A stretch of DNA of 33,408 nt. Source: Candidatus Firestoneibacteriota bacterium (GTDB taxonomy: Bacteria; Oederibacteriota; D2-FULL-39-29; CAIOVX01). The position numbers were made by a program, and so were the translations under genes. The stretch is taken from positions 1-33,408 of the forward strand of contig CAIWRR010000016.1 in assembly GCA_903915125.1 (NCBI GenBank), written 5' to 3'. Shown piece after piece: positions 3,779-32,350 of this stretch; positions within the stretch are counted from its first letter, which is position 1, and each line of letters opens with the position of its first letter. Under the pieces are notes generated by a model. That model was given only the letters and a program-made list of their open reading frames with translations. It had not been told where the DNA came from and made no database searches.

Positions 3779-3806
3779 ATTATAACACAAATAAGGCGCC
3801 TGTCAA
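3779..3806 (-). promoter_or_regulatory. Sigma-70-type promoter of the tetR-tolC-hlyD-ATPase operon
   Basis: Read on the minus strand, a perfect -35 TTGACA (3801-3806), a 16-base spacer and a perfect -10 TATAAT (3779-3784). The predicted transcription start is near 3772, giving a leader of about 32 bases to the tetR ATG, with the operator inside it. Confidence 0.75.
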
Positions 3807-3815
3807 GACGCCTTA
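3792..3815 (-). terminator. Probable terminator of the LPS-core operon
   Basis: A 7-base-pair stem, TAAGGCG/CGCCTTA, with a 10-base loop is followed on the minus strand by TTATTTGTGTT. It lies just past the GT9 stop at 3824. The stem is short and the U-tract interrupted, so termination may be leaky. The -35 box of the next promoter lies within the loop. Confidence 0.5.
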
Positions 3816-3823: not shown

Positions 3824-4843
3824 TTATGCCTTAATATTCAGCTTTACAGCCTCTTCAACTTTAGATACACTGATTTCGTTCATACACCTGAGATCAGAAC
3901 ATTCTGTCTTCTCACACGGCATACATTCAAGTTTTGCCTGCAAAACTGTTTGTTTCCTGTAATCCGGGTCCACCCAGGCCCTGCTGTCTGTTGCTCCGAA
4001 AATACTAACGACATTCGCTCCGACAGCTACGGCCAAATGCTGGACGAAGGTAGTGCCTGTAACGACTGCAGCGCTCTTCTTAAGAAGCCAGCCAAGTTGT
4101 TTGATGCCGGTTTGCGGAGCGAGGAAAGCCCGCGCTCCAGATGCAGCCGTGACGCTCTTTGCGGATTCGTACTGCCCCGGTCCCCACGCTATAACCACAG
4201 GCGTACCGCCTATTCCAAGTTTGACTGCCAGTTCTGCATACTTAGTCCTTGGCCACTCGCGTGTGCGCGCGCTGGCGAAAGGGTTCAGAACCGCATACTT
4301 CCCTTCCTTCAGTCCCTCCGCTTTCAGGAATGAACTGATATAGTTTTCCGCTTCCGTCCCAAGTTTAATTTCCGGCCTGCCTCCTGAGCCAACTGCGCCG
4401 GAGGCTGCGGCAACCCTAAGCCAAACCTCAGGATTATAAATAATTTCAGTCGAACCCGGGACTACTTTGTTGTAGAAAATGTTCCTGCTGCCGCTTGCCA
4501 AACCAACCCTGTATTTTGCTCCGCTGAGATATGTAAGCATTGCGCTGCGCATGTTTCCGTACATATCAACCACCAGGTCAAACTTCTTTCCTTTAACCGA
4601 TAGAATCAAGTTTAGGTCGCGTACATAATTCCGGCCGCTCTTTTTATCAAAAACCAGGAGTTCGTGTACAAAACTCTCGGCTTCAAGCAGCTCTTCTCCT
4701 CCCTTATTTACCAGAACACTCAGTTTTGCCCCGGGGTATCCCTCCTTCAATGCTTTCATGGCGGGAATAGAGAGTAAAATGTCTCCAAGAGCCCTAAATT
4801 TTATAATCAGTATTTTTTTCACTTTTTCTTTTTGAATTATCAT
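3824..4843 (-). CDS. Glycosyltransferase family 9 (heptosyltransferase-like)
   Basis: It probably transfers an ADP-heptose-type or related sugar onto the LPS inner core at the cytoplasmic face. The N-terminal Rossmann domain opens with KKILIIKFRALGDILLSIPA, the usual GT9 signature (R-x-x-x-G-D-x-x-L-x-x-P). The C-terminal nucleotide-binding half has FVQHLAVAVGANVVSIFGAT, where most relatives have a D/N-S-G-x-x-H motif; here it reads T-x-F-V-Q-H. A Cys cluster, CMPCEKTECSDLRC, near the C-terminus is shared with two sister GT9s in this operon. At 339 aa it has typical length. It is the last gene of the operon and overlaps the preceding GT9 by four bases. Acceptor and donor are not known. Confidence 0.88.
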   Translation of the reverse strand: MIIQKEKVKKILIIKFRALGDILLSIPAMKALKEGYPGAKLSVLVNKGGEELLEAESFVHELLVFDKKSGRNYVRDLNLILSVKGKKFDLVVDMYGNMRSAMLTYLSGAKYRVGLASGSRNIFYNKVVPGSTEIIYNPEVWLRVAAASGAVGSGGRPEIKLGTEAENYISSFLKAEGLKEGKYAVLNPFASARTREWPRTKYAELAVKLGIGGTPVVIAWGPGQYESAKSVTAASGARAFLAPQTGIKQLGWLLKKSAAVVTGTTFVQHLAVAVGANVVSIFGATDSRAWVDPDYRKQTVLQAKLECMPCEKTECSDLRCMNEISVSKVEEAVKLNIKA

Positions 4844-5874
4844 TTACCTTTCCCGCCGGTAATCCGGATAAAGGCGCTGTAGACTTCTTTTACGCCAAGC
4901 GCTTTCATGCACTTGAGGTCATTGCAGCTGTCTTTTCTGCAAGGCCAGCAAGGCATGATCTTCTTTAGCCAGACGGCTTTCGTCTCATACGGAAACCATA
5001 CATCCGGATCTCCCGGACCGAAAATTCCCACCAATGGTATATTGAAAGCACCGGCTATATGCATAGCTCCGTTGTCATTGGATATAAATCCGTCAAGTCG
5101 CGACACAACCGCTGAAAAAAGACGCAAAGGAAGGTTATCCGCGAAAACAGCCTTTTTTTCCATAAGCATCAGCACCTTCGCTCCGATTACACGGTCTTTC
5201 GGACCTGAAAATATTATTACCTGCCGTCCTTCCGCAATAAGCTTATCAGCCAAAGCCGCAAATTTTTCCGCAGGCCACATCTTTGCCGGCCAGCTCGCGC
5301 CGGGATGTATGCCTATTACCGGCTTTCCAGAATCAAACATGCTAAGTTTCATAAATTTATCCGCACTTTTTCTCTCATTGATTGATAGCTTAAGCACTGT
5401 GGTTTTTTCATAATTAATGATTCCGAAGAGCCTGCCGACACGATTATAGGTATCTATTGCGTCTCCCGGTTTCCCGTCGCTGTTCACAAAATGAGTATAC
5501 GCGTATTTCCTTCCGCGGTGCTCCCAACCAATCCTGACTTTAGCTCCGCTTAATAATGTGAGCAATGCGCTTCTCGGATTGCCGAATGTGTCAATAACCG
5601 CGTCAAATCGCCTCTTCCTTATATTTTTAATCATTAACAGGTTATCTGCCAGATTTCCGCGCTCAAGAGTAATCAACTCGTCTAAATATGGGTTATTCTT
5701 TAACACTTCCAGGGAAGCCTTTTCCGCAAGGTACGATATCTTGGTGCCAGGAAGTCCGGCCTTTAAAGCGCGCACCAAAGGGGTCGAGAGCAGAACGTCA
5801 CCTATAAATCTCGGACGGATTATTAGCAGTTTCTTAATCCCTTTAGGGTCTATTTGAAGTTCTCGCGTTTTCAT
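4840..5874 (-). CDS. Glycosyltransferase family 9 (heptosyltransferase-like)
   Basis: This is a second GT9 LPS-core enzyme. It has the GT9 opening KKLLIIRPRFIGDVLLSTPL, a middle motif PVIGIHPGASWPAKMWPAEK that matches the family's HPGA-x-x-x-K-x-W element, and FISNDNGAMHIAGAFNIPLV, which is the conserved N-D-S/N-G-x-x-H-x-A donor-binding motif. The C-terminal Cys cluster CWPCRKDSCNDLKC is also present. At 344 aa it is full length. Its ATG shares one base with the stop codon of the upstream ligase fusion (TAATG), and its stop overlaps the next GT9. It is the best-preserved GT9 in the set. Confidence 0.92.
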   Translation of the reverse strand: MKTRELQIDPKGIKKLLIIRPRFIGDVLLSTPLVRALKAGLPGTKISYLAEKASLEVLKNNPYLDELITLERGNLADNLLMIKNIRKRRFDAVIDTFGNPRSALLTLLSGAKVRIGWEHRGRKYAYTHFVNSDGKPGDAIDTYNRVGRLFGIINYEKTTVLKLSINERKSADKFMKLSMFDSGKPVIGIHPGASWPAKMWPAEKFAALADKLIAEGRQVIIFSGPKDRVIGAKVLMLMEKKAVFADNLPLRLFSAVVSRLDGFISNDNGAMHIAGAFNIPLVGIFGPGDPDVWFPYETKAVWLKKIMPCWPCRKDSCNDLKCMKALGVKEVYSAFIRITGGKGK

Positions 5875-7640
5875 TAACTCTCTTGCCTTAAGATATAGCC
5901 GGCAGCGTCGAGAAGGTCATCTGCTATAAAATCCGGCTGAGCAAGACCCAACTTTCTTTTCTCCTCAGCGCCGTATCCGGTCAGGACCAGTATCGACTTC
6001 GTTCCGCTGTTCCGTCCGAACTCAACGTCAGCCTTTTTATCTCCAACAACATAGGACCGGCTTAGGTCAAGACCAAACTCTCTTTCCGCCTGCTTTATCA
6101 TCCCCGGTAAAGGTTTCCTGCAGTCACAATTTTCCCCAGGAGCATGCTTGCAGAAATATGTAGCGTCAACGCGACCCCCGCTTTTTTCTTTTATCAGCCT
6201 GTCCAGTTTCTTGTGAATAGCGCGCAAAGTCATTTCGGTGAACAGCCCTCTGCCAATGCCGGACTGGTTAGTAGTTATTATAACGGCAAATCCGGCGTCA
6301 TTTAATTTCTTGATTCCTTCCGCGGCGCCTTCTACAAGGAACAGAGCTTCCGGGTCAGAAAGATACTCTTTTTCAACATTAATAGTCCCGTCGCGGTCAA
6401 GAAAAACAGCCGGCTTGCCGCGCGAAAGGCTATTTGAAAGCGCGGCCATTCCCAACCCTGTCAGAAACCAGAAGTCAAGCATGACTTGGGAGGCTCCCCA
6501 GGAATACTCAAAAAGTCCAGTGACAATCAGGACGGTGAAGACGCCGCCTGATCCAATGAATAGGTGTTTCGCAAACCCTTCGCGGAATCTTCCGAGCCCC
6601 TTTAGAAAAACATAATAATAAACTGCAATAAAATAGATAAATAGCGCCAGCACAGGGAGCCCGCGCTCTGCTGCTATTTGCAAAAAATTATTATGCACGT
6701 GCGCTTTTGCGTCTCTCTCTGCGGCTTCAGGGAGCATATACTTTTCATAGACCAAACCGAGGTTGTCTATGCCTACACCCATAGGATGATCCCTAATTAT
6801 ACTAAGCGAACTTTTCCACATACAGAGACGTTCATGAACCGATTGATGTTGCAGATCCGCTATTTTGCTTATGCTTTTCCCGAGACCGCTTGCAGGCATG
6901 AAAAATATACCGGCCGCAAATATCACCAAAACCACTGCCACCAGGGCGTAAGCAATCCATTTGCGCGAGAGAAATGCAATGAATATTACAAGCGCCAAGA
7001 GCGCTATCAGGCCTGAACTTGCATGCGCCCCAATTAGCGCGGCAAAACAGGCCTCTAAAGCTATTACAGACAAGATCCATTTTCCGGCAGACATGAATCC
7101 CATTCTCGCTTCGGACGAGACAGCAAAAAGTATGATAACACCTATAAGGGCAATAGCGAAGTTCATTCCGATACCAAGATGTATCGGATGACCGAGCCCG
7201 CCGCCGAACCGGGCTTCTCCCCTGAGGACTCCTCTTATTACAGCATAAAGAGCCCCGATAAGCGCAGACCAAACCAGTAACCAGGCTGTCCGTTTTAGCT
7301 TTTTCTCCTCTCCGAAACTTTCCCTGGCAACGACATACATTAACATCCAGCCGGCCGTCTTTACAAAAGCGTGCTGGCCTAAACTCTTTGCGGTATCAAT
7401 GCCGAAGAAGCAGGAAATAAAACTGCCCAAAAGCAATGCAAGAAACGCGGCATCAAAGAGATTGTATCGTTCAGGACGAAAGAACTTTCTTCCTTTCGAG
7501 ATGACTTGCACAAGTAAACCGGCAAGCGCCAGCGCGAAAAAGACCTGCATCGGACTCCAGGCCCAAAAAGCGCAGAATGCAAACCCATAGAGTGAATACT
7601 CTGTCGCCTTAAGACTTATCTCTGACACTCTTTGACGCAT
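5874..7640 (-). CDS. Fusion: O-antigen ligase/polymerase (Wzy_C) + GmhB/HisB-type HAD phosphatase
   Basis: Residues about 1-400 are a polytopic membrane protein with roughly ten hydrophobic segments and the O-antigen ligase motif AHVHNNFLQIAAERG in a large extracytoplasmic loop. Residues about 408-588 are a soluble HAD phosphatase of the D,D-heptose-1,7-bisphosphate/histidinol-phosphate class: FLDRDGTIN (nucleophile D415, acid/base D417), TTNQSGIGRG, a zinc loop CKHAPGENCDC (C-x-H-x5-C-x-C) and VVGDKKADVEFG. The two join through a short SNSLSRG linker with no frameshift visible. The ligase joins glycan to lipid A core in the periplasm, while GmhB makes ADP-heptose precursors in the cytosol, so the phosphatase should hang on the cytoplasmic side. 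The start is preceded by AGAAGGAG and follows the deacetylase stop directly. The heptose role fits the four GT9 genes here. Confidence 0.88.
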   Translation of the reverse strand: MRQRVSEISLKATEYSLYGFAFCAFWAWSPMQVFFALALAGLLVQVISKGRKFFRPERYNLFDAAFLALLLGSFISCFFGIDTAKSLGQHAFVKTAGWMLMYVVARESFGEEKKLKRTAWLLVWSALIGALYAVIRGVLRGEARFGGGLGHPIHLGIGMNFAIALIGVIILFAVSSEARMGFMSAGKWILSVIALEACFAALIGAHASSGLIALLALVIFIAFLSRKWIAYALVAVVLVIFAAGIFFMPASGLGKSISKIADLQHQSVHERLCMWKSSLSIIRDHPMGVGIDNLGLVYEKYMLPEAAERDAKAHVHNNFLQIAAERGLPVLALFIYFIAVYYYVFLKGLGRFREGFAKHLFIGSGGVFTVLIVTGLFEYSWGASQVMLDFWFLTGLGMAALSNSLSRGKPAVFLDRDGTINVEKEYLSDPEALFLVEGAAEGIKKLNDAGFAVIITTNQSGIGRGLFTEMTLRAIHKKLDRLIKEKSGGRVDATYFCKHAPGENCDCRKPLPGMIKQAEREFGLDLSRSYVVGDKKADVEFGRNSGTKSILVLTGYGAEEKRKLGLAQPDFIADDLLDAAGYILRQES

Positions 7641-8384
7641 TTATCTCCTTCTAAAACCCCTGTACCACAGGTACCAGGGGGATATTTTCCTCATAAATGT
7701 TCTTATGCTGTCATCTTTCTTTACATAAACCCTTCGCAAGTCAAACGGATCTTCCAAAACATATTTCGTCTCTGCCGATATTGAAACGCCAAACCTGTAA
7801 CCGGCTGCTCTGAGCGCCTCTTTAACACGGGCATTCCTGTCACCATACGGATAGATTAATGTGTTGACCGGCTGACCTGTCAGTTTTTCAATATCCTGCT
7901 TTGAAAAAGTCACTTCTTTTTCAAGTTCGTGCCCTTCCAATGCAGAAAGGAAGCTGTGCGTTTCGGAATGAGAAACAAATGAGAAACAACTCTTCGAGTA
8001 TTCCCTTACCAGCCCGGCATCAATTATCTTGTAATACTCCTTGCGAGCTTTCTGCCAGTCATCAAAACTGCCGATACAACCGGTAACCAGTCCTACAACC
8101 GCCTTTTGTCCGTTCTTTTGCAGCACCGGCATAACATTTTTCAGGGTTTCCGCATAGCCGTCGTCTATAGTAATGATAACCGGCTTTTCCGGCGGCTTGA
8201 CTTTTTCGTCATAAATATCCGCCAATTGTTTGAAATCGATGGTGGTATAACCTGCAGCAGAAAGCGCCGTTGTTTGCGCCACAAAAACATTCAGGCTCAG
8301 GAAAGAATTGTCTTCCGGCAAGACAGCGTCGCCGGCCGCTATATGATGATACATCAGAATAGGGATATCTTTTAAGTGCGCCAT
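7641..8384 (-). CDS. Polysaccharide deacetylase (NodB homology domain, CE4)
   Basis: This is a carbohydrate esterase 4 protein, likely removing N-acetyl groups from an LPS or core sugar, or acting on an intermediate. Motifs: PILMYHH near the N-terminus, ITIDDGYA (catalytic and metal-binding Asp pair), SHSETHSFL (metal-binding H-x3-H) and LIYPYGDRN (the conserved Y-P-x-G). No signal peptide is seen, so a cytoplasmic site of action is likely. At 247 aa it is a compact single domain. Its ATG lies 13 bases inside the end of the upstream GT2 gene. A gene of this type often follows a WaaE-like GT2 in LPS-core operons. Confidence 0.9.
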   Translation of the reverse strand: MAHLKDIPILMYHHIAAGDAVLPEDNSFLSLNVFVAQTTALSAAGYTTIDFKQLADIYDEKVKPPEKPVIITIDDGYAETLKNVMPVLQKNGQKAVVGLVTGCIGSFDDWQKARKEYYKIIDAGLVREYSKSCFSFVSHSETHSFLSALEGHELEKEVTFSKQDIEKLTGQPVNTLIYPYGDRNARVKEALRAAGYRFGVSISAETKYVLEDPFDLRRVYVKKDDSIRTFMRKISPWYLWYRGFRRR

Positions 8385-9148
8385 TTTAGCCCCTTTGTCT
8401 CATAACCACAAAGCTCTAACAACTTAAGCTCGCAAGTAAAGTAATAAAAAGCGGAAAGCGTATGAAAAATAAGACCATGCAGCCCGTCAAGCGCGCCTAA
8501 CTTCAGGAAATACCATTTAAAGAACCTGCTCGCCGGCCGGAAAAACAAGCCATAAACGCTCGGCTCTAAACCATTCTCCTTTCTGCCCTTTGCGTCTAAA
8601 TAGGTGTAGTTGTTGAATTTTCTGAGATAGCCGTAGAGGCTCTGATACGAATAATGTTCCAAGCAATTCTCAAGCCGTTTCTCAACCGCCCCGCCTTTAA
8701 GGTAAATCCCCTCATGCACCTGTCTCACGTTGAACATGAAGCGCCCTTTTCTCCTGTTAAAAAGGCGAAGGTGATAGTCCGGGTACTGACCTCCGTACTT
8801 AAGCCACTTTCCCAGGAAAAAGTTACGGATGGGGATAGCATAGCCTTCACCCGCTAAACGCAGGCTCTTAAGTTCCGCCCTCAAAGCAAAGGAGACTCTT
8901 TCATCGGCATCAAGACTGAGTACCCAATCATTCTTTGCCCTGTCAATTCCATAATTCTTTTGGTTAGCAAAGTTATCCCATTTGCGCGTAAACACCTTCT
9001 TCGTAAATTTCTTGGCAATCTTCACGGTGTTATCCGTACTGCCGGCATCCACAATTATTATTTCATCGGCGAAAGAAACGGAACGCAGGCAGTCATCAAG
9101 ATTCCGCTCCTCGTTCTTGGTTATCACTACAACGCTTATTTTTTCCAT
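8372..9148 (-). CDS. Glycosyltransferase family 2, WaaE/KdtX-like
   Basis: This is a probable LPS-core glycosyltransferase of the WaaE (beta-1,4-glucosyltransferase) group. Motifs: ISVVVITKNEERNLDDCL at the N-terminus, EIIIVDAGSTDNT, the metal-binding LSLDADERVS, and the family pattern IPIRNFFLGKWLKYGG followed by HLRLFNRRKGRF and VHEGI. At 258 aa it has the usual length for WaaE. The C-terminal 60 residues are aromatic-rich and may associate with the membrane. It overlaps the neighbours on both sides by 13 bases. It is also the intact reference against which the decayed GT2 domain in the neighbouring fusion gene can be aligned. Confidence 0.9.
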   Translation of the reverse strand: MEKISVVVITKNEERNLDDCLRSVSFADEIIIVDAGSTDNTVKIAKKFTKKVFTRKWDNFANQKNYGIDRAKNDWVLSLDADERVSFALRAELKSLRLAGEGYAIPIRNFFLGKWLKYGGQYPDYHLRLFNRRKGRFMFNVRQVHEGIYLKGGAVEKRLENCLEHYSYQSLYGYLRKFNNYTYLDAKGRKENGLEPSVYGLFFRPASRFFKWYFLKLGALDGLHGLIFHTLSAFYYFTCELKLLELCGYETKGLKWRT

Positions 9149-10539
9149 TTCAGGTATTCCTTGTATACATCCGCCGGCTTTATGATTTCAAGGCATTCAC
9201 GCCCTTCACAATTCTCTTTCCAGCAGGGCTTGCAAAACCTGTCCTTTGAAACCAGGTAATGCCCCTGTCCTTCTTTGTAAGGATGAAATATTACGGGCTC
9301 ATCCGGCCCGACAATGGTTATTGTTGCAGTACCGAGTGCCGCAGCCGCGTGCGAAAGGCCGGAATCATTTCCTATGTATAGGGCTGCGACTGAAAGCAGC
9401 CCTAAAACTTCCCTCAAGCCCAACAGCGGCAGTAAGACAGGTTCACTTTTTGCCAGCGAAGCCGTGATGGCAGACGAGACCGAGTTTGCGGGGTCTGCCA
9501 AGAGCAGCACCTTCACGTTCTTTTCGGATGATATTTTATCAACTAAAAGCGAAAAAGACTTTTCCGGCCAGATCTTATTTCGCTTGCTGGCCGATGGATT
9601 AATTATAATGACTTTAGTGTTTTTCCTTGCGCCATATTTTATTAGAAGCGCCCGCGCTTTTTTCTGCTCGTCAGCAGAAACCGATATTTTAGGCTGTGAA
9701 AATTGCGCCTTTAAACCAAATGCCCTGAGACAGTCCAAATCCCTTTCAGCTGCATTCTCGTATTCTTGAGGTTTCTTTACGCGCACCGAAGAAAAGTAAT
9801 TTCTTCCGTTATGATTGTTCACAGAGAGCAGTTTTGCGCCGGAAAGCCTGGCAAGCAAAGCCGATCTGAAACTTGCCTGTGAAACCAGCGCTATGTCGTA
9901 TTTATTTCTTCTGAGCTTAAGCAGCGTCCTAAAGAAACCTTCGTAAGCTATTGCAGTTGATATATTCGTATGTCCCGAAAGCAGACTGGCGCTCTCTTTT
10001 CTAACTACTGCATCAATTAAAACGCCTTTAAATGACTTCTTGAGCGCCTTAAAAAGCGGAGTCAGAAGTACTGTATCTCCTATACCTCTGAGCTTTACAA
10101 CAAGAATCCTCCTTATCCTGACTGAAGCGCGTATATCGGGAAAGCTCTTGTGGGTCAGGTAATCGCGTATTGGATTAGCAAGCGTTCCGGTTATGCCTTT
10201 TCCTCCCGCAAAAAACAACCTTGCGCTGCCCTTACAGACAAGCTTCCAGGTATCTCCGGTGTTTCTTATAATAGGAATCAGGTAAGCGTCCGGATTATTC
10301 CTGCCGGGAACTTTTTTCAATTCCTCAAACAATGTCCGTATTTCGCGTTTTAGCGGAATTGAGACTTCTTCGCCGGAATTCAGCCCCAGAAACCAGCCTG
10401 AAATTTTGCGTCCGGAAGTTCCACGGCCTTGCTTTACCACAACAATTTCCGAGGTCCAGCCGGCAACGCTGTTAACCGTCCGCGCCAGGCCTTCTTCATC
10501 TCCGTTTTGATTAATTATGGCGGTTATTCCGGTTTTCAT
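9136..10539 (-). CDS. Fusion: degenerate WaaE-like GT2 domain + GT9 glycosyltransferase
   Basis: The C-terminal part (about 143-467) is a full GT9 enzyme: RRILVVKLRGIGDTVLLTPL, IIINPSASKRNKIWPEK and LYIGNDSGLSHAAAALG, ending with the Cys cluster CKPCWKENCEGREC. The first about 135 residues look like a shortened WaaE-type GT2. GITAIINQNGDEEGLARTV parallels the GT2 opening, SEIVVVKQG parallels EIIIVDAG, and WFLGLNSGEEVSIPLKREI parallels WVLSLDADERVSFALRAEL in the neighbour gene. AYLIPIIRN and ARLFFAGGKG parallel IPIRN and LRLFNRRKG. The metal-binding DxD is lost (NSGEE, residues 54-58), so this domain is unlikely to be catalytic and may bind acceptor or partner. The fusion sits directly upstream of the intact WaaE-like gene, overlapping it by 13 bases. 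Confidence 0.85.
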   Translation of the reverse strand: MKTGITAIINQNGDEEGLARTVNSVAGWTSEIVVVKQGRGTSGRKISGWFLGLNSGEEVSIPLKREIRTLFEELKKVPGRNNPDAYLIPIIRNTGDTWKLVCKGSARLFFAGGKGITGTLANPIRDYLTHKSFPDIRASVRIRRILVVKLRGIGDTVLLTPLFKALKKSFKGVLIDAVVRKESASLLSGHTNISTAIAYEGFFRTLLKLRRNKYDIALVSQASFRSALLARLSGAKLLSVNNHNGRNYFSSVRVKKPQEYENAAERDLDCLRAFGLKAQFSQPKISVSADEQKKARALLIKYGARKNTKVIIINPSASKRNKIWPEKSFSLLVDKISSEKNVKVLLLADPANSVSSAITASLAKSEPVLLPLLGLREVLGLLSVAALYIGNDSGLSHAAAALGTATITIVGPDEPVIFHPYKEGQGHYLVSKDRFCKPCWKENCEGRECLEIIKPADVYKEYLKWKK

Positions 10540-11603
10540 TTATATTTTTGCTCCGCGAGCAATTTTTCCGCCGCCGCAACAACTTCAACAACCCCAGTAT
10601 CAGCGCATTTTCTTCCGCTTAAGATCTCCAACTTGGGATTATCGCCGGGCGCCCACCTGCTGTAATCGCTTTTCCCGTAGATTCCCACAACTGGCGTTCC
10701 GGCAGCCATGGCGATATGTACCGGCCCTGTGTCGCCGCAAATAAACAGATTCATTCTTTTATAAATTGCAGCCCAACCTGTGATAGAGGAAGGTTTTAAT
10801 ACAGGCACATTCCCGCCGAGCGAAGAATTAAGCCTGCTCGATAACCCGCTTTCTCCTGGCCCTTCGCTTATCACAAGCTTAGCGCCGTGTTTTTCGCGCA
10901 AGATGGAGGCCGCCGACGAAAAAGAGTCCAAAGGCCAGCGTCTTGGTTTTCTCTTGGAGCCCGGATGCAGTCCCACAACCAAATCCTTAATTTCCAGGCC
11001 ATGCCGCGCGTAAAACTTCCCCGCCTCCGCCGCTTCATCAGCGGAGATAAAAAGTGATGGTTTTGAATATGAAGACTTAAAACCTGCTTTTTCCAAAAGT
11101 TCTATATTCCTGCGCGCTTCGTATTTCCCTTGCGGGTCCTTCTCAACCTCAATATTGTAGAAAGCGTCAGTGTATTTATCTTTGAAACCGGCCCGTATAG
11201 CGGCCCCTGATTTGTAACATGCAAGAGCGCTTGAAAGATCAAAATCATAGGTTAATACTACAGCCGCGTCATACCCGGAAGAAACCGATTTAGCGTAATC
11301 TTTGCTCCCGTATTCTATTACATTGTCTATATACGGGTTGTTCTTTAGAACCCCCCGGCTGTACCTGTTTAGAAGCACAGTCACGCTGGAACCGGGTATA
11401 TTTTTTTTTATACTCTCAAAGACAGGAGTAGAAAGGAGCATATCTCCAACACGGTCAAGCCTTATAATGAGGAATTTCTTAGCTGCATCCGTAGAGGTTG
11501 GCGCGGGTTTGGAATGCGTTCCAACGGCCTTAATGATGAATGCCGCTGTTTTAGCCAGGGCGTGTCTGTATTTAGCCCTGATTATAGAAGTGTGGAACTT
11601 CAA
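10536..11603 (-). CDS. Glycosyltransferase family 9 (heptosyltransferase-like)
   Basis: This is the fourth GT9 of the LPS-core operon. It has the GT9 signature KKFLIIRLDRVGDMLLSTPV (about residue 42), VVGLHPGSKRKPRRWPLD and LFICGDTGPVHIAMAAGTPV (the G-D-T/S-G-x-x-H-x-A donor motif). About 40 basic and hydrophobic residues precede the domain. Unlike its three sisters it ends after GRKCADTG and lacks the four-Cys tail. The start is a TTG, with AGAGG five bases upstream overlapping the stop codon of the preceding GT2; no in-frame ATG lies nearby. It overlaps the downstream gene by four bases. Confidence 0.88.
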   Translation of the reverse strand: MKFHTSIIRAKYRHALAKTAAFIIKAVGTHSKPAPTSTDAAKKFLIIRLDRVGDMLLSTPVFESIKKNIPGSSVTVLLNRYSRGVLKNNPYIDNVIEYGSKDYAKSVSSGYDAAVVLTYDFDLSSALACYKSGAAIRAGFKDKYTDAFYNIEVEKDPQGKYEARRNIELLEKAGFKSSYSKPSLFISADEAAEAGKFYARHGLEIKDLVVGLHPGSKRKPRRWPLDSFSSAASILREKHGAKLVISEGPGESGLSSRLNSSLGGNVPVLKPSSITGWAAIYKRMNLFICGDTGPVHIAMAAGTPVVGIYGKSDYSRWAPGDNPKLEILSGRKCADTGVVEVVAAAEKLLAEQKYK

Positions 11604-11605: not shown

Positions 11606-12346
11606 TTACCTCTTAGCCGAAAAGATGCGAAACCTGCCAAGCCGCGACTTTTGGAGAAGATAACGCAGCAAGCTCCAGAGGGTCTGAAGCCCGTAAACCA
11701 CGCTATTTTTGAAGCTAATTGAGGAAGAATCCTTCAGGTATTTTGTCGGGCAAGGTATCTCTTTTATCTTCATCCCGTAAAAAACTGTCTGGACTATTAC
11801 CTCAGTGTCAAAAACAAAGTTCTCGGAGTTATTCATAAATGGTATATTTTCAAGTAAACGCCTGCTATAGGCCCTGTAGCCGGTATGAAATTCCGAGAGC
11901 TTTAGTCCCAGAAAAATATTTTCTGTTATTGTCAGAAACCTGTTGCTGATGTATTTGTAGAAAGGCATACCTCCGGAAAGAGCAGTTCCTGAAAGCAGCC
12001 TTGAAGCCAGCACAAGATCAGCCTGCCCTTCTGCTATCGGCCTTACTATCTCGGGTATTAGCTTGGGGTCATATTGATAATCGGGATGAAGCATTACCAC
12101 AATATCAGCATTGTTCTTAAGCGCTTCAGTATAACAAGTCTTCTGGTTGCCGCCATAACCTCTGTTTTCCGGATGCACAAATACTAAAATCCCTAGTTCT
12201 CTTGCTTTTTTGACCGTTTCATCATGAGACGCGTCGTCAACGAGTATTATACCGTCAACAGCGTCTTTAGGTATGTCATTATATGTTATTTCAAGTGTTT
12301 TTGCCGCGTTATAGGCCGGCATAACAACCACAACTCTTGGTTTCAT
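11606..12346 (-). CDS. Glycosyltransferase family 2 (DPM1-like)
   Basis: This inverting GT2 enzyme resembles dolichyl/polyprenyl-phosphate mannosyltransferases. Motifs: VVVMPAYNAAKTLE, GIILVDDASHDET (nucleotide-binding Asp residues), the metal-site equivalent VMLHPDYQYDP and FHTGYRAYSRRLL. At 246 aa it has no long C-terminal membrane domain, so it probably works at the inner face of the membrane. It is the first gene of the LPS-core operon. No Shine-Dalgarno is visible before its ATG, and the predicted -10 box ends seven bases upstream, which suggests a leaderless message. Confidence 0.9.
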   Translation of the reverse strand: MKPRVVVVMPAYNAAKTLEITYNDIPKDAVDGIILVDDASHDETVKKARELGILVFVHPENRGYGGNQKTCYTEALKNNADIVVMLHPDYQYDPKLIPEIVRPIAEGQADLVLASRLLSGTALSGGMPFYKYISNRFLTITENIFLGLKLSEFHTGYRAYSRRLLENIPFMNNSENFVFDTEVIVQTVFYGMKIKEIPCPTKYLKDSSSISFKNSVVYGLQTLWSLLRYLLQKSRLGRFRIFSAKR

Positions 12347-12352: not shown

Positions 12353-12381
12353 ATTTTAGCACAAACAGGTGTTTGAGTAAA
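12353..12381 (-). promoter_or_regulatory. Candidate promoter of the LPS-core operon
   Basis: On the minus strand, TTTACT (12376-12381), a 17-base spacer and TAAAAT (12353-12358). The distance to the ATG at 12346 implies transcription starting at or very near the start codon. The rest of 12347-12491 holds only the terminator listed separately. Confidence 0.5.
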
Positions 12382-12491: not shown

Positions 12492-13415
12492 CTATAGGTT
12501 GAAGGCAGGCCTTGGCTCTGTAATGCATATTGAGAACCTATGCGTGCCTGCGCCTTCTATATACATAAGCGGCATAGTGAACGAGTAATCAAACCTTGCA
12601 TCCAATATTTTTGAGGGCAAATAGAAACTGAAACCTAGGCCAACGTTTAGGTAACTGTTATTTCCGTATCCAACACCGCCTCTAAACCCCAGCTCTGAAT
12701 TGCCTGCGCCGAGTTCCTTTAGCAGGCCTGAATCCAGCCAGTATTCACCGCCGCCTTTAATCTTTGCGTCGTCGCCGTTCAAGTCTCCTTCAAGAGAGAC
12801 AATAAGGCTCTTGTCTATCTTGTACCTGCCGCCAATCCTTAGGTTCATTGGGACAGGATCGGAACTCCCAACGTTAATATCAGGAACATTTAAGTTTTCA
12901 ATCGAGGCGCCTACAGCTATTTCCTCTGTAAGTTTCCCGAAGAAAGATGCGTCTAATCCCAAACCCGCGGCGGAAGTCGATGAGAAAAAAGGATTCCCTG
13001 CCGCTATAGAGTCAAGGGTGTATGATTTTGAAAGCAGTTTTAGCGCCACTCCAACAGTGTACTGTTTGGTAATTGGATAGGCATAGCCGACCTTCAGCGT
13101 GCTTTCCGAATATGCGGACGCCGCAGAAAGGCCTAACCAGCTTACACCTATAACTCCGTTACCGGGGATAGGCACAACAATGGCCGCAAAGCTTTCGCTG
13201 AGCCCTTCCATATACCCCGTGTAAGTAGCAGTTGAAGAGATAACCTTTATTTGAATCATACCGGCAGGATTATAATACATGGCGTTTGCGTCATCGGATA
13301 TGGCAACAAAAGCTTCGCCAAGCCCTGTAGGCCTTGCGCCCTGGCCAGAGTCAAAAAAGGCCGCATGCGCAACAGCCGATACCAGAAGCATTGCCGCTAA
13401 GACTAATTTTTTCAT
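12492..13415 (-). CDS. PorV/PorQ-like outer-membrane beta-barrel protein
   Basis: This is a predicted outer-membrane barrel of the PorV/PorQ (UPF0164) type. In type IX secretion systems PorV shuttles cargo at the cell surface. A signal peptide (MKKLVLAAMLLVSAVAHA) is followed by the family signature GARPTGLGEAFVAISDDANA and MYYNPAGMIQ (D-D-x-x-A-x-x-x-N-P-A-G). Repeated amphipathic strands follow, ending in aromatic-flanked strands. At 307 aa it fits the smaller members. GGAGGAG lies five bases before the ATG. It follows the gene for a secreted protein with a FlgD-like end, which supports a secretion-linked role. Without other type IX genes in the window, this role is inferred. Confidence 0.8.
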   Translation of the reverse strand: MKKLVLAAMLLVSAVAHAAFFDSGQGARPTGLGEAFVAISDDANAMYYNPAGMIQIKVISSTATYTGYMEGLSESFAAIVVPIPGNGVIGVSWLGLSAASAYSESTLKVGYAYPITKQYTVGVALKLLSKSYTLDSIAAGNPFFSSTSAAGLGLDASFFGKLTEEIAVGASIENLNVPDINVGSSDPVPMNLRIGGRYKIDKSLIVSLEGDLNGDDAKIKGGGEYWLDSGLLKELGAGNSELGFRGGVGYGNNSYLNVGLGFSFYLPSKILDARFDYSFTMPLMYIEGAGTHRFSICITEPRPAFNL

Positions 13416-13435
13416 AAAAACTCCTCCGTATTAGA

Positions 13436-15181
13436 CTATTTCGCCAGGACTACGGTTCCTTTACCTGCAACCGTGCTGCCCACTTTTATCTGCCAGACAT
13501 AAACCCCTCCGTCCACAACTTTGCCGGAATTGTTCTTGCCGTCCCAGGTTATTGTACTGCTCAAGGCGCCGGAATTCCAAACTACAGATGTATTCCCGGC
13601 ATTCAAATTCGCCACAAGCGTGCCGTTAGGTTTATAAATAAGCATTGAGACGTCCTCATTTATTTGGTTGAAAACCGAGAAAGACGCCTTGGAATAGGAA
13701 GCTCCTCCGGTTGGTGTAAAAGGATTGTTGGATATTTTTATTCCGGAATGGGGAGCACCGGAAACTTCATCAGCCAAAACTAACGGGGTCTCCGTTAATG
13801 TGCTTGCAGATGTATAAACATTTGCCGTAACCGTATAGTAGTAAATCACTCCGTTGGTGACTGAGATGTCCGCAAAATTCTGGGAAACTGTTGTTGTTAA
13901 CGCAGTCCCGTAAGTTTTTGAAGAAGTTCCCCTGTAAATATTATAGGATGCTACTTCCCCTGTTTTTGCGTCTGAGTTAAACGAGATATCCATACGCCCG
14001 TCTCCGGCAGTAGCAACGATTGAATACGGGAGCGGTTTAACAATAAGATTCGTGAAATACACCGTGGCATCTGCAGTAGCAGAACCGGCCAGAAAACCTA
14101 TCCTGCCCGCGATAGAACCCGTTTCCTGAAAGCTGTAGTCCGCCGAACTCCAGGTAGCGCCGCCGTCAATAGAATGATAGCATGACAGTACCCCGCTTTT
14201 TGAAACAACTTTCAGGGAGTAAGTAAAATTTGTTGCCGAGGTAGTGGTTGTAGCGGCAGCAGTTGAGGTCGCGTTTACCAGCGCCGAACCATTATACTTT
14301 TTAATTTCAAAACCCCTGGTTTGCGCGTTAAAGTTATAGAGGTAATAACTTGAATCCACCACGCTTTGATTAACAACCAGTCCTGCGTACTGCGCGTTTG
14401 CCGACTGCACATTCACATCTACGGTCGCAATAAAATCCCTATAGAATTTATTCAACAAAAGTTGAGGTTTGGCTATATCACAGTTGCCGTTCTGTCTGTA
14501 AACTTTTGTGCCGCCGTTGTTGTAGATAGACCAGACACCGCTGTCTTCATTCCATACGCCATTCGTAGTATTGCTGGCGCTAACTACCCTCAGGTCGTCA
14601 ATTCTGATAGCAGTACAGGTTGCCCCTCCGGTCGGCGTAAAAAACTCCACGCTCCAGGCCGATATTGCCGTCGAATCGACACTAAGCGGCCAAGAAAGCA
14701 GGCTTACTTTGAAATAATTCCAAGTATTTGTGGCAAGGCTCGAACCTACCGGAACCGATGTAGAAACTGTAGTATTGTTGCCGCCAATGCTAAAAGTTGA
14801 GTCAGAACTGATATTTGCAGTTGCTCTGTTCCATAACGCGCCGAATGAAGGCAGGTAATACCAGAACTGAAGTGAACCCGTTGTCAGCAATGACATGTTA
14901 ATTGAAGCTATACCGGATCTGATAACCTGAGTAGTCGAATTTGTGCCCCCGGTTTTATCCCACCTAATTGACGTTCCGCCATCCCTGAACTGAACCGCGT
15001 CAACAGTGATATTGGAAGTGTCCGTTCCGGCAGCGGAAACTACGGTCGAGGAAGTAGTTACATTGTTGCAAGGATCAATAACCTTATAAAAAGATTCATA
15101 ACCTGTGAAGTCATCATAATATCCCTGGACAGGGCTGAATACGAAGAGCAAAACAGGAAGCAAGAATAGATATTTTCTCAT
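13436..15181 (-). CDS. Secreted multidomain protein with FlgD-like C-terminal domain
   Basis: This is an exported protein of unknown target. After a signal peptide (KYLFLLPVLLFVFSPVQG) come an N-terminal beta-sandwich region (about 25-205), a concanavalin/LamG-like region (about 210-385, with FEIKKYNG and CYHSIDGGATW), an FN3-like segment (about 388-475, DISFNSDAKTGEVASYNIYRG) and a FlgD-Ig-like end (about 485-581). The last part shows NPFTPTGG, TITWDGKNNSGKVVDGGVY and a final short strand. FlgD-like ends of this kind often act as C-terminal sorting domains in lineages with type IX-like secretion. Composition is rich in Thr, Ser and Asn, unlike the neighbouring enzymes. It is co-transcribed with the PorV-like gene 20 bases downstream and has its own promoter. 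The start is preceded by GGGGG at normal spacing. Confidence 0.82.
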   Translation of the reverse strand: MRKYLFLLPVLLFVFSPVQGYYDDFTGYESFYKVIDPCNNVTTSSTVVSAAGTDTSNITVDAVQFRDGGTSIRWDKTGGTNSTTQVIRSGIASINMSLLTTGSLQFWYYLPSFGALWNRATANISSDSTFSIGGNNTTVSTSVPVGSSLATNTWNYFKVSLLSWPLSVDSTAISAWSVEFFTPTGGATCTAIRIDDLRVVSASNTTNGVWNEDSGVWSIYNNGGTKVYRQNGNCDIAKPQLLLNKFYRDFIATVDVNVQSANAQYAGLVVNQSVVDSSYYLYNFNAQTRGFEIKKYNGSALVNATSTAAATTTTSATNFTYSLKVVSKSGVLSCYHSIDGGATWSSADYSFQETGSIAGRIGFLAGSATADATVYFTNLIVKPLPYSIVATAGDGRMDISFNSDAKTGEVASYNIYRGTSSKTYGTALTTTVSQNFADISVTNGVIYYYTVTANVYTSASTLTETPLVLADEVSGAPHSGIKISNNPFTPTGGASYSKASFSVFNQINEDVSMLIYKPNGTLVANLNAGNTSVVWNSGALSSTITWDGKNNSGKVVDGGVYVWQIKVGSTVAGKGTVVLAK

Positions 15182-15408: not shown

Positions 15409-16074
15409 CTAAAGTATTATATCTCCTGAATGCGCAAGCAGTTCTCTCATGTTGCGAACACAAGCATCCGGTTTAGCTCCTTTGATTTCGTCTTCAGAAG
15501 AATACCCTTCCAAGATACCGATAGTTTTTACTCCGTAGGCCTGTGCCGAACTAATATCAGTCCCGGCATCCCCGATCATTACAGCTGATTGCGGTTTTAC
15601 TCCGCCGTCTATCAGTTCTTTGAACATCCCTAACTTGTCAATCTTTCTTCCTGCGTGCATATCGGGGGTCATTACTTTCGAAAACAGGCCAAAACTCCCA
15701 AGTTTCTCGAAGAGGAAACCAAGATTTCTGGTCGGTTTGTTAGTGACCAGACCTAGTTTTTTTTCTTTTGAGGCCAGCAGGTCTATCAGCTCTTTCGCTC
15801 CCGGAAAAAACGCTGTCTTCTTGAAATCCTTGACGAGGTACATCTTCATGAACTCTTCTGTCAGGGTTTTTATCTCAGATTCGGTCACGTCCGGGGTCAA
15901 CACTTTCAACATAGTCGCCAGCGGAGGTCCGATTTTTACTGAGGCGGCATTAACGCCCATGAAACGCGGGATTGTGTTATAGGCCCTCTGCAGGTTATCA
16001 ATGATATCTCCGGCGCTGTCAACAAGAGTTCCGTCAAAGTCAAAGAAATACCAGGTGAAGTCGAGAAAGCGCAT
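15409..16074 (-). CDS. HAD-superfamily hydrolase (phosphoglycolate phosphatase-like)
   Basis: This is a cytosolic phosphatase of the HAD subfamily I with a helical cap. Motifs: YFFDFDGTLVDSAGD (nucleophile Asp and acid/base Asp), LVTNKPTRN (motif II Thr), Lys in the cap-following segment GRKIDKLGMF, and MIGDAGTDISSAQAYG (motif IV). The start at 16074 has AAGGAGA five bases upstream. The longer open frame to 16140 runs through a junction repeat and adds an unrelated hydrophobic stretch. The length of 221 aa is normal. It may release phosphate from a sugar-phosphate intermediate for the adjacent nucleotide-sugar genes, but its substrate cannot be read from sequence. Confidence 0.87.
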   Translation of the reverse strand: MRFLDFTWYFFDFDGTLVDSAGDIIDNLQRAYNTIPRFMGVNAASVKIGPPLATMLKVLTPDVTESEIKTLTEEFMKMYLVKDFKKTAFFPGAKELIDLLASKEKKLGLVTNKPTRNLGFLFEKLGSFGLFSKVMTPDMHAGRKIDKLGMFKELIDGGVKPQSAVMIGDAGTDISSAQAYGVKTIGILEGYSSEDEIKGAKPDACVRNMRELLAHSGDIIL

Positions 16075-16090
16075 AAATCTCCTTGAGAAC

Positions 16091-16196
16091 GCAAGCACCA
16101 AATCACAAGCACCAAGCACCAAATAAACGTCAAAAACCAAACAAAGAAAAGCACTTTTAGTCGTTTTGCAATTTGGTGCTTGGTATTTGGCGCTTA
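16091..16196. repeat. Inverted array of AAGCACCAAAT words at a gene junction
   Basis: The left arm (16091-16125) carries three CACCAAAT/CACCAAGC-type words. The right arm (16168-16196) carries the same words inverted (TTTGGTGCTTGG, TTTGGCGCTT). About 40 bases separate them, so the RNA could fold into a long imperfect hairpin. On the minus strand the array begins at the stop codon of the GT2 gene. Confidence 0.7.
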
Positions 16197-24515: not shown

Positions 24516-25031
24516 TCAAATGTATTTTCTGTAGGCCTCGTGGATGTTAATCATATTCTCCGGGCACACCGTATGCCACTTCAGATACCCTCTGCTCGTT
24601 TCAGCTAACCCTTTATTCTCAGGTGAAAATTCTTCCAAAAACCTGCACTTAAAAAGGAAAGAAACAAAGTGCCCCCTTGACACATGCTCGCAAAAAAACT
24701 GTTCTATTGCCGCCGGGACGGGGTCAAAAACAACCTCTGCCCCAAGTTCTTTTCTCGCGGTTTTAAGTATTCTTTCCTCAAAAGTTTCCTTGTACCTGAC
24801 AATACCTCCGGGAATGTGCCAACCCTTCCCTGAAAACTCGTCGTCCCTCCAGGAAAGCAGCGTTCTTCCAGCAGCATCCTTCACGAGAAGGTCAACATTT
24901 ACCATAGGCGTCAGCCTGCTGGCCAGCAAAAACACCTCTTCCGGAAGCCCCTTCCTCGCGTCAGGGACCATCCCGTCAATCGCGGCTATGGCCTCATGAA
25001 TATTCACTTTATGCCGGATTCCCCGAAGCAT
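24516..25031 (-). CDS. Nudix hydrolase, GDP-mannose mannosyl hydrolase-like
   Basis: It probably hydrolyses a GDP-hexose to GDP and free sugar, tuning nucleotide-sugar pools. The Nudix box reads G-IVRYK-E-TFEERIL-KTARKELGA. The usual R-E and E-E pairs become K-T and K-E, the same kind of loss seen in E. coli GDP-mannose hydrolase (WcaH/NudD), whose chemistry moves to the anomeric carbon. FLLASRLTPMVNVDLLV and WHIPGGI also match that group. The ATG at 25031 lies 28 bases inside the SDR gene without a clear ribosome site; a GTG at 25007 overlapping the SDR stop (GTGA) is a good alternative and would shorten the protein by eight residues. Confidence 0.83.
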   Translation of the reverse strand: MLRGIRHKVNIHEAIAAIDGMVPDARKGLPEEVFLLASRLTPMVNVDLLVKDAAGRTLLSWRDDEFSGKGWHIPGGIVRYKETFEERILKTARKELGAEVVFDPVPAAIEQFFCEHVSRGHFVSFLFKCRFLEEFSPENKGLAETSRGYLKWHTVCPENMINIHEAYRKYI

Positions 25032-25882
25032 GTTTGTTGATTTTTCTTGTACCAGTCAAAGAGGCCTTCTATTGCCTTATCTATGGGCGTGAAAGAGAAA
25101 TCCTTTATTTCGGAAAGCAGCCTCGAATTGTCTCCGCTGTACTCACCCGAGAAACCGCTCTTTTCAAATACCACCTTAAGGTCTTTGCCGGCAACCTTAA
25201 GCACCTTCGCCGCAAGTTCTTTTCTGCTGAAGGCCTTCCCGGAACAGGCGTTATAAACTTTTTCTTTGGGGTCACTTGCAATGAATATTTTCACAAGCCC
25301 CGTTATGTCGTCAATACAGGTGTAATCATAAACCGCGTCCTGGTGAATCACAATTTCCCTGCCGGTCAGCGCCTGATAACAAAGGTTTGAGATAAACCTG
25401 TACCTCCAGTCCTCGTATTTGCCGAAGACCCCGAAAAGCCGGAGGTTGTAAATATTCTTACCGGAAAGTGCGTGTTTCGTCATTAAATATTTCGAAAAAC
25501 CGTACTGATCAGATGGGACAAACTTGTCAAAATAACTTTCCGGCATGCGCGGCAGCCAGTTCTCGCGGCCGAACTCCGCGCCGGAACCGAAGAAAATCAG
25601 CCTGCCGAAATTGCCGCTCCACCTTGCTATATTGAAAAACATCCTGAGATTGTTATTAAGGACTTTGGCAGGGTCTTTTGTCGAGGTCTTGGGGGCTGCG
25701 TCATACGTTGCCGCGTGAATAACCAGGTCGAAACCCCCGGACTTAAGCGTGTCCGCCACTTTTATTGAGTCGAGCAAATCGAGCTCGCCGCTTCCCGGCG
25801 AACTGACTTTGTGTTCCGAGGAAAGGGCCTCCGCGAGGTTTCTGGCGATAAAACCTTTTCCTCCGGTTACGAGTATTTTCAT
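25004..25882 (-). CDS. NAD-dependent epimerase/reductase (extended SDR)
   Basis: This is a nucleotide-sugar reductase or epimerase. It has the Rossmann motif TGGKGFIARNL, IHAATYDAAPKTS, FFGSGAEFGRENWL (active-site Ser region) and YGFSKYLMTKHAL (Y-x3-K). At 292 aa it is on the short side, as in dTDP-4-keto-rhamnose reductase and GDP-fucose synthase. It starts directly after the ThDP enzyme stop (TAGATG), so the two are translated together. In yersiniose synthesis a ThDP enzyme (YerE) is followed by a reductase (YerF) that reduces the new acetyl branch; the arrangement here allows the same role. This is inferred, not shown. Confidence 0.85.
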   Translation of the reverse strand: MKILVTGGKGFIARNLAEALSSEHKVSSPGSGELDLLDSIKVADTLKSGGFDLVIHAATYDAAPKTSTKDPAKVLNNNLRMFFNIARWSGNFGRLIFFGSGAEFGRENWLPRMPESYFDKFVPSDQYGFSKYLMTKHALSGKNIYNLRLFGVFGKYEDWRYRFISNLCYQALTGREIVIHQDAVYDYTCIDDITGLVKIFIASDPKEKVYNACSGKAFSRKELAAKVLKVAGKDLKVVFEKSGFSGEYSGDNSRLLSEIKDFSFTPIDKAIEGLFDWYKKNQQTCFGESGIK

Positions 25883-27664
25883 CTACGCTTCGTCCGCCGG
25901 CGCGATCAGCATGCCGGCAAGGAATTCTTCCCTTTCCAGGAACGGCCAAAGGTCTTCAAGCGGTTTGGATACTATCCTGCCGTCCGGCAGGACTGCCGAA
26001 GATACCCTGGGGGCAGTTTCCAGCATCGGCTCAACTTCTACGTCACAGATTACCGGGCCTTTGCTTGCGAGGACTTCCTTTACAGCTTTCTCCAGATTAT
26101 TTTTAACCGTTATTCTTCTGGTTTTTATTCCATAGGCCGCGGCTATTTTAAGCGTATCAGGAACGGTGAGGCCGCTTGTCGGATCACAGCTTACAAGCCG
26201 TCCTTTAAAATGCCGGGTCTGCATCATTCGTATTGAACCGTAGCCGTTGTTGTTGAGGATAAAAAGTTTGTAAGGCAGGCCCAGCCTCTTAATAGTTTCA
26301 AGCTCCTGGATGTTATGCTGCAGCCCTCCGTCTCCTACCACGCCTATTGTTCTGCGGCCGCTTGCAACGCAGGCGCCAATCCCGGCCGGCAAGCCAAAAC
26401 CCATAGAACCGAGTCCCGGGGTATTTAGCACGCGCAGCCCTTTCTTAATCTTTATCGTTTGCATGGTGACTTCCGCGCAGCTGCCGGAGCTGCCGGGGAC
26501 AAGAATATCCCGCGAGGTAAGCTGTTTAGACAAGGCATCTATGAGGCTATAAGTATTTATGAATTTGCCTGAAGTCTGCAGGCTTGATTTATCCGGGACC
26601 GGGTACAACTTTTTGAGGCGGCCGCACCACTCCAGCCATTTCTTTGCGCCTGACGGCTTAGCCCGTTTAAGCAGCAGCTCAATAAAAACCCCGGCGTCGG
26701 AATTAACCGCAACATCTTTTTTAAATCCCATTTTGCGTATTTCCGCGGCGTCAATATCGACAATAATCTTCTTCGCTTCTCTCGCAAAGTTTTTGTAATC
26801 AAAAGCTACCTGCGGCAAATCCAGCCTCGCGCCGAGGGTGATCAAAAGATCTGAATTCTGTTGAATAAAATTAGCAGCCCGCTGGCCGACAGAGCCGGGG
26901 CGTCCGAAATAAAGCGGGTCATTTTCCGGCAGCAGATCGGCGGCGCGCCAGGTTGTCAAAACAGGTATATTGAGCTTGCGAATCAATTTAAGAAACTTTG
27001 CTTTCGCGCCTGCCATTCTAATGCCGTTTCCGGCCAGTATAACCGGGCGTTTCGCGGCCTGGAGCAGTTTCACGCATTGAGCTATGTCAGGTTTCTTTGG
27101 CGTATTTTTGGCCGGAGTAAAGCCCTTCAGTTTATTTTCATCTATCATGCTCCCCTGAACGTCCAGTGGGATTTCTATCCAGACCGGCCCCTTTCTTCCT
27201 TCAGTCGCCAGGTAAAGGGCTTTTTCAAGATGATATCTAATTTCTTCCGGCCGCATAACAGTTGCGGCATATTTGGTTATTGAGCCGACTACGGTGACTA
27301 CATCAACCTCCTGCACTCCCATCTGCCTGACTCCGCGCCCCTTCAGCAGATCCGCCCGCTTGGCCTGTCCGGAAAAGTAAATTACGGGAGTGGAATCTAT
27401 CCACGAAGCCGCAACGCCGGTAACAGTATTTGTTCCGCCCGGCCCGGTAGTTACCAGCACGGCTCCCGGTTTCCCAGTATACTGCGCTGAGGCGTCAGCC
27501 GCTATGGCCGCGGCCTGCTCGTGCAGCACGGGAATAAATCTTAACTTTTTGTTTGCCCCGAGAGAGTCAACAAGGTGCATGCAACCGCCGCCGGGCAGCA
27601 TAAAGATTTCTTTGATGCCCTGACCGGCAACGAATTTCATCACATAATCTGATAGTTTTATCAT
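25883..27664 (-). CDS. ThDP-dependent acetolactate-synthase-like enzyme
   Basis: This is a thiamine-diphosphate enzyme of the acetohydroxyacid synthase fold. Its three domains are an N-terminal PYR domain (about 1-170) with the catalytic Glu in LHEQAAAIAADA (E49), a middle domain (about 190-330, VILAGNGIRMAGA) and a C-terminal PP domain (about 380-540) with the metal/ThDP motif VVGDGGLQHN (444-446) and FILNNNGYGSIRM (471-478). The NNNGYGSI form is usual in homologues from glycan clusters. With rfbFGH next door, the best analogy is YerE, which adds a two-carbon unit from pyruvate to a CDP-4-keto-3,6-dideoxy sugar. A housekeeping acetolactate synthase is less likely: no small subunit or ilv gene is near. 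The C-terminal about 50 residues extend past the fold. AGGGG precedes the start. Confidence 0.88.
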   Translation of the reverse strand: MIKLSDYVMKFVAGQGIKEIFMLPGGGCMHLVDSLGANKKLRFIPVLHEQAAAIAADASAQYTGKPGAVLVTTGPGGTNTVTGVAASWIDSTPVIYFSGQAKRADLLKGRGVRQMGVQEVDVVTVVGSITKYAATVMRPEEIRYHLEKALYLATEGRKGPVWIEIPLDVQGSMIDENKLKGFTPAKNTPKKPDIAQCVKLLQAAKRPVILAGNGIRMAGAKAKFLKLIRKLNIPVLTTWRAADLLPENDPLYFGRPGSVGQRAANFIQQNSDLLITLGARLDLPQVAFDYKNFAREAKKIIVDIDAAEIRKMGFKKDVAVNSDAGVFIELLLKRAKPSGAKKWLEWCGRLKKLYPVPDKSSLQTSGKFINTYSLIDALSKQLTSRDILVPGSSGSCAEVTMQTIKIKKGLRVLNTPGLGSMGFGLPAGIGACVASGRRTIGVVGDGGLQHNIQELETIKRLGLPYKLFILNNNGYGSIRMMQTRHFKGRLVSCDPTSGLTVPDTLKIAAAYGIKTRRITVKNNLEKAVKEVLASKGPVICDVEVEPMLETAPRVSSAVLPDGRIVSKPLEDLWPFLEREEFLAGMLIAPADEA

Positions 27665-27671
27665 TTTCCCC

Positions 27672-29198: not shown

Positions 29199-29212
29199 AT
29201 CGCCTCCGCGGG

Positions 29213-30559: not shown

Positions 30560-30599
30560 TTCAGTTAACTTCTCCTTTTCCTTTTTTGCCAACGGTCTT

Positions 30600-30762
30600 C
30601 CGTCCTCCGGCATCTGTCCTCAGCCCTTAAGCATCCGGCCTTCTAAAACTCTAATCATCCGACTGTCTTCTGTCCTCCGTCTTCATCCCCTGCTCACTGT
30701 CCTTAATCATCCAACCCTCTAAACATCTAAACATCCATCTGTCACCGTCTACCGTCCTCATG
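30600..30762. repeat. Mixed heptamer/octamer degenerate repeat between rfbG and rfbH
   Basis: On the minus strand this junction mixes heptamers of GACRGAR type (GACGGAG, GACAGAA, GACAGTC, GACGGAA) with octamers of GATGTTTA type. On the plus strand two exact octamers CTAAACAT stand at 30719-30726 and 30727-30734. The array reaches into both genes: the last residues of RfbG (EDGRR) are encoded by it, and an upstream in-frame ATG for RfbH lies in it. Shared words with 16920-17049 include GACAGAAGAC and GGAAGACCG. Confidence 0.7.
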
Positions 30763-31923: not shown

Positions 31924-31924
31924 T

Positions 31925-32278: not shown

Positions 32279-32314
32279 CTTACATCCCCCATTTCATCAT
32301 GCTTGCTTTTGTTC

Positions 32315-32344: not shown

Positions 32345-32350
32345 ATCCAC

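Follow-up and report, generated by a model that had tools for sequence, protein, structure and literature searches.

The window (the whole stretch of DNA analysed, 33,408 nucleotides) carries a tight operon of eight genes, from 12346 to 3824 on the reverse strand, in the order GT2, GT9, GT9, GT2, deacetylase, fusion gene, GT9 and GT9. The first gene (11606..12346; all operon features given below are likewise on the reverse strand) encodes a GT2 glycosyltransferase that is 78-96% identical across the genus and its sister family. It is followed by a GT9 heptosyltransferase-family protein (10536..11603), a second GT9 protein with an N-terminal extension (9136..10539), another GT2 glycosyltransferase (8372..9148) and a polysaccharide deacetylase-like protein (Polysacc_deac_1; 7641..8384), all assigned by Pfam. 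The sixth gene (5874..7640) encodes a Wzy_C-type ligase fused to GmhB, the heptose bisphosphate phosphatase. Its stop codon is overlapped by the ATG of a GT9 heptosyltransferase (4840..5874) scoring over the heptosyltransferase II cut-off of TIGR02195, and the last gene encodes a further GT9 heptosyltransferase-family protein (3824..4843; Pfam and NCBIfam). Consensus scans placed a promoter-like site (12353..12381; TTTACT-17-TAAAAT with TG) ahead of the operon, such sites being no more numerous than expected by chance, as well as a terminator-like stem before the operon (12476-12454) and another of 10 pairs just after it (3792..3815).

Several neighbours of the operon are worth recording. Positions 3779-3815, between the LPS operon and a tetR-efflux operon, hold a perfect sigma-70-like promoter (TTGACA-16-TATAAT with TG, 12/12) that overlaps the terminator-like stem and shares bases with it. 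The stretch 12492-15181 encodes two proteins conserved in the genus, an outer-membrane protein of the PorV family and a protein of 581 aa whose C-terminal-end match to the PorU sortase model is weak. The region 25004-33121 contains genes for a glucose-1-phosphate cytidylyltransferase (best PDB match 1tzf), a CDP-glucose 4,6-dehydratase (1rkx), RfbH (721 bits, over its cut-off), an acetolactate-synthase-family ThDP enzyme and an RmlD-like reductase. This cluster looks like a CDP-linked 3,6-dideoxyhexose pathway, and its gene content suggests that the product is possibly the branched sugar yersiniose.

The fusion gene is one frame of 588 aa that starts with ATG and has no internal stop. Its ATG abuts the stop of the deacetylase gene and is preceded by a strong GAAGGAG site, and the Shine-Dalgarno region GAAGGAGAT (7641..7655) is the same in three species. 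A Wzy_C/WaaL-type ligase (residues 1-405) is followed by a joint of about five residues and a complete GmhB (411-586). The sequence-only reading had proposed such a one-frame fusion of a Wzy_C ligase with a GmhB/HisB-type HAD domain, and both families are indeed matched over curated cut-offs. An AlphaFold2 model of the whole chain had a mean pLDDT of 90.1 and a pTM of 0.79, with no residue under 50. The input was an alignment of relatives of both halves (A4); an alignment lacking the GmhB rows (A3) gave a low-confidence HAD half. In the model, the last of 12 membrane helices runs to residue 405 and the HAD domain opens with a strand at 411, which leaves residues 406-410 (SRGKP; 6411..6425) as the joint.

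The GmhB half, a HAD-IIIA domain (residues 411-588; 5877..6410), was identified with NF006506, the PDB entries 4pnh and 2gmw, and Foldseek. The NCBIfam GmhB equivalog NF006506 matches residues 409-586 with an E-value of 1.4e-53 (181.2 bits versus a cut-off of 178), and the stricter TIGR00213 was not reached (123.1 versus 149.6 bits). Foldseek aligned this half with 3l8h (TM-score by target 0.92) and 2gmw (0.86). A residue-by-residue alignment to GmhB 4pnh showed that the HAD residues D415, D417, T457, K509, D534 and D538 are intact, as is the C-x-H...C-x-C zinc loop (C497, H499, C505 and C507). This bears out the earlier claim that the nucleophile, acid/base and zinc-loop residues were present. 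The fused copy thus resembles the known GmhB enzymes (3l8h, 2gmw and 4pnh) over the whole domain, including the catalytic and zinc residues and the equivalog score, whereas it is joined to a membrane protein and has no start of its own instead of being soluble and stand-alone.

The remainder of the ADP-heptose pathway is present in genome G000, away from the fusion. The genes gmhA, hldA and hldC are clustered at G000:C196:8432-10472, where the GmhA match lies below its cut-off (197 versus 209 bits) yet stands beside HldA and HldC, both over theirs. The gene hldD is located on C64 (over cut-off) and that of the Kdo transferase, waaA, on C274. The presence of a separate gmhB in the genome had been raised as a check on the fusion. 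A search with NF006506 found no GmhB in G000, G002 and G003 (the last 98% complete) other than the fused copy, with partial HAD matches as the only further hits, so that the fusion carries the sole copy found. In E. coli and Klebsiella, GmhB is only partly needed, its function being partly redundant (PMC9302095). As there are also other HAD phosphatases here, being the sole GmhB does not prove that its activity is indispensable. One of these phosphatases, of the HAD_2 type, is encoded near the operon at 15409-16140 and could in principle back up GmhB.

The sequence-only reading had also offered the HAD domain as a new regulator. That it might be a regulator or sensor of the ligase, instead of a working heptose phosphatase, has one point in its favour, namely its attachment to a periplasm-facing enzyme that does not directly need its product. 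The full set of catalytic and zinc residues, the strong purifying selection on this half, and an otherwise complete pathway in genomes with no second GmhB all argue against that role, which we regard as very improbable. The idea is further disfavoured by the direct relationship of the HAD half to the stand-alone GmhB of the sister family.

The ligase half (residues 1-405; 6426..7640), with its 12 transmembrane helices, was assigned by Pfam, the AlphaFold2 model, Foldseek and a profile search. Pfam Wzy_C matches residues 197-335 with an E-value of 1.3e-20 (74.1 bits versus a cut-off of 31.7). The A-H-V-H-N-N motif named at the outset occupies residues 313-318, and the putative periplasmic loop (247-328) carries R271, W275, H314 and H316. 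While phmmer found no PDB chain for the single ligase half, a profile of 27 ligases found the cryo-EM structure of WaaL, 7tpg, by sequence (E 2.2e-22), and Foldseek matched the half to the same structure (TM-score by target 0.72, E 8e-9). In the profile alignment, from whose printed form the residue numbers were counted off, R271 lies opposite WaaL R265 and H314/H316 opposite the H-x-H. R271 and H316 are invariant, and H314 nearly so, across 27-28 aligned relatives. E. coli WaaL requires conserved arginines and a histidine. The fused proteins share with WaaL (7tpg/7tpj) the membrane fold and the equivalents of R265 and the H-x-H but differ from it in the added C-terminal GmhB and in helix 8, where the arginine of T-R-G, present as R in 24 of 29 aligned ligases, is replaced by S208. 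A histidine, H206, lies two residues ahead of this serine, and the closest unfused relative has R206. Because of the loss of the T-R-G arginine, canonical ligase activity is not assured. We therefore class the fused half as a WaaL-like protein and not as a proven WaaL.

The Wzy_C family also spans polymerases and protein O-glycosylation ligases, and the Wzy_C model cannot tell such enzymes apart. The N-terminal half may thus be a different Wzy_C enzyme of one of these kinds and not an O-antigen ligase. The replaced T-R-G arginine of the fused lineage speaks for this alternative, and the closest unfused relative has a weak, sub-threshold match to TIGR03097 (PEP_O_lig_1) and adjoins a gene for a TMEM260-like mannosyltransferase. 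WaaL, however, is the best PDB match both by structure and by profile, and the gene belongs to a core-LPS operon that encodes four GT9 proteins and lies near a cluster of deoxysugar genes of the type usual for O-antigen. We consider the alternative rather unlikely. Two further Wzy_C proteins are encoded in G000 (C84 and C238, with frames of about 606 and 1048 aa), and others are found in each genome. The 1048-aa frame bears two Wzy_C domains, and both proteins of this pair are found across the order.

The host of the fusion is a genus of uncultured lake bacteria, Candidatus Firestonebacteria. A search of relatives covering 59 genomes found the full-length fusion in two other species of the genus, as a protein of 589 aa in G003 (83% identity; bin 98% complete) and in G002 (77%). 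In a third congener, the contig stops within the ligase half. The public records of the congeners are the Candidatus Firestonebacteria bins CAIOVX010000003.1, CAITPB010000195.1 and CAIWWK010000213.1. Gene order around the fusion and the whole operon are conserved in G003 and G002. Pairwise dN/dS values are 0.09-0.11 for residues 1-400 and about 0.10 for residues 411-587, while dS among the three full-length fusions is about 0.8 to 1.7 and none of the three (0/3) is split. The joint region 401-410 is relaxed, with only 5 to 7 of its 10 residues agreeing between species. These values indicate that both halves are under similar purifying constraint and that the joint is not.

The sequence-only reading had named two observations that would speak against a true fusion, a frame error joining two genes and relatives that always carry the genes separately. 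Every genome compared is a metagenome bin, which leaves room for an assembly or sequencing error that merged two genes. The fusion nevertheless occurs in three species, in separate bins and contigs, with 77-83% identity across the joint and lengths that agree within one residue, and a misjoin of this kind is virtually negligible. Since the same fusion occurs in three species and dN/dS is near 0.1 in both halves, we conclude that it is not an artefact. As for relatives, two congeners carry the genes fused, and the sister family has a stand-alone gmhB.

The sister family (G004, G006 and G007) has the same operon in the same order, with a stand-alone gmhB of 183-224 aa between the deacetylase and GT9 genes. 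Its ligase is encoded elsewhere: the ligase genes of G004, G005, G007 and G008 adjoin a DUF520 (YajQ) gene and a dnaJ-like gene, and that of G006 adjoins cmk and a nucleotidyltransferase gene. In the phylogenetic trees, the fused HAD domains form the sister group of the sister-family stand-alone GmhBs (100/99). The fused ligase groups only with the unlinked ligase G006:C8 (100/100), apart from the other sister-family ligases. Since the sister-family operon has gmhB in this place and the ligase gene lies outside it, and since the groupings agree with this arrangement, we conclude that gmhB stayed in place and that, most likely, a ligase gene was inserted in frame upstream of it. The fusion would then have arisen, most likely once, in the ancestor of the Firestonebacteria genus, when a ligase gene entered the conserved core-LPS operon directly upstream of gmhB.

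The search for GmhB fusions covered three phyla (about 220 genomes) together with a mixed set of relatives. Outside the genus, it found the Wzy_C-GmhB pair in none of the 45 genomes of its own phylum, the 133 of the phylum of G053, the 40 of the phylum of G056 or the mixed set, and the open-access literature searched contained no report of an O-antigen ligase-GmhB fusion. GmhB does occur with other partners. The phylum of G053 has GT9-GmhB fusions of about 530 aa (L121-L134, L040), of which 8/8 frames were confirmed by Pfam, with frames of similar length in most genomes; we found no paper on them in the open-access literature searched. These proteins also carry GmhB at the C-terminus of an LPS-assembly enzyme and are widespread in that phylum. 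Their partner, however, belongs to the heptosyltransferase family and takes as substrate what the same cytoplasmic pathway makes, unlike a periplasm-facing ligase. GmhB-HldC, HldC-GmhB and sugar nucleotidyltransferase-GmhB fusions occur in the phylum of G056 (L135, L138, L139, L140 and L142). They too use GmhB as a fusion module, but their partners look like soluble enzymes of the nucleotide-heptose pathway. A GmhB frame of 786-809 aa in G011 was rejected as a fusion, its N-terminal part resembling the wrong frame of a GC-rich neighbour. The bifunctional HldA-HldC enzyme HldE of E. coli likewise joins ADP-heptose pathway enzymes, whereas the Firestonebacteria genus has separate hldA and hldC and its Wzy_C-GmhB fusion crosses the membrane. 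Together with the Wzy_C-GmhB fusion, the GT9, HldC and nucleotidyltransferase fusions make GmhB a repeatedly recruited fusion module. GmhB fusion in LPS biosynthesis is recurrent as a kind, and the Wzy_C partner is new.

The two activities are known from different sides of the membrane, and the sequence-only reading had left the position of the C-terminus to be predicted. By a positive-inside count, the basic N-terminus and the basic loops lie on the same side. With 12 helices and the N-terminus inside, the C-terminus is predicted to be inside as well, and the apparent paradox resolves. The GmhB half would face the cytoplasm and the ligase active site the periplasm, each on the side that its pathway needs. 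As long as the protein remains one chain, this predicted architecture would tether GmhB at the membrane's inner face. No channel between the active sites is expected, because they would sit on opposite sides of the membrane.

The protein might also not stay whole. Translation starting internally at M398, or cleavage at the joint, could yield free GmhB with or in place of the full-length chain, and the fusion would then be mostly a translational arrangement. M398 is conserved and is preceded by a purine-rich sequence in all three species. The same methionine is nevertheless ordinary ligase sequence, shared with unfused relatives in which no second protein could begin at this point. It lacks a strong Shine-Dalgarno site, in contrast to the GAAGGAG at the ATG of the fusion, and from M398 as far as the DRDG motif there is no further ATG, GTG or TTG codon. 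Initiation at M398 is therefore unlikely, given its place in ordinary ligase sequence and its lack of a strong ribosome site, and we take the production of two polypeptides to be quite improbable.

We propose, with a probability of about 0.72, that the fusion is a bifunctional inner-membrane protein that keeps both activities, with the ligase anchoring GmhB and no substrate channel between them. The 12-helix half would act as a WaaL/Wzy_C-type ligase at the periplasmic face, joining a lipid-linked glycan, which is probably O-antigen, to lipid A-core. On the cytoplasmic face, separated from the membrane by a few residues, the GmhB half would strip the 7-phosphate from heptose 1,7-bisphosphate in the ADP-heptose pathway. 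The two enzymes on one chain would work independently, and the ligase would serve as a membrane anchor that holds GmhB next to the operon's own heptosyltransferases. That both activities operate, that the chain stays whole in the cell and that tethering is of benefit are points that we infer.

Whether the joining itself brought any gain is a separate matter within this proposal. Two working enzymes may have come to share one chain by a neutral operon fusion, tolerated since the ligase ends in the cytoplasm and GmhB can bear extra sequence at its N-terminus. We rate such a neutral join at slightly less than even odds. In its favour, the joint coincides exactly with the former start of gmhB, in an operon whose genes are tightly packed, and itself evolves freely; a single genus of the phylum has the fusion; and GmhB tolerates many partners on either side. 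Against this, the fused proteins have diverged to 77% identity without a split among the full-length cases. Persistence alone, however, does not show benefit, and neutral and beneficial joins account for the data about equally well. The suggestion in the sequence-only reading that the fusion tethers heptose supply to the site of core assembly is plausible from the cytoplasmic C-terminus and an operon full of core glycosyltransferases, but the benefit in it is only conjectural.

A stronger form of the bifunctional proposal, which we hold to be decidedly unlikely, is a working hub in which the only heptose bisphosphatase, placed under the ligase, ties the cytoplasmic supply of core heptose to the periplasmic attachment of O-antigen. 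If this were true, core synthesis and ligation would take place at the same membrane sites or in a fixed ratio, and one polypeptide would physically link the last stage of LPS assembly with an early one. The genus offers a natural, putatively membrane-tethered GmhB, for which the sister-family operon supplies a closely related unfused control, and this would make enzyme co-localisation in LPS assembly testable.
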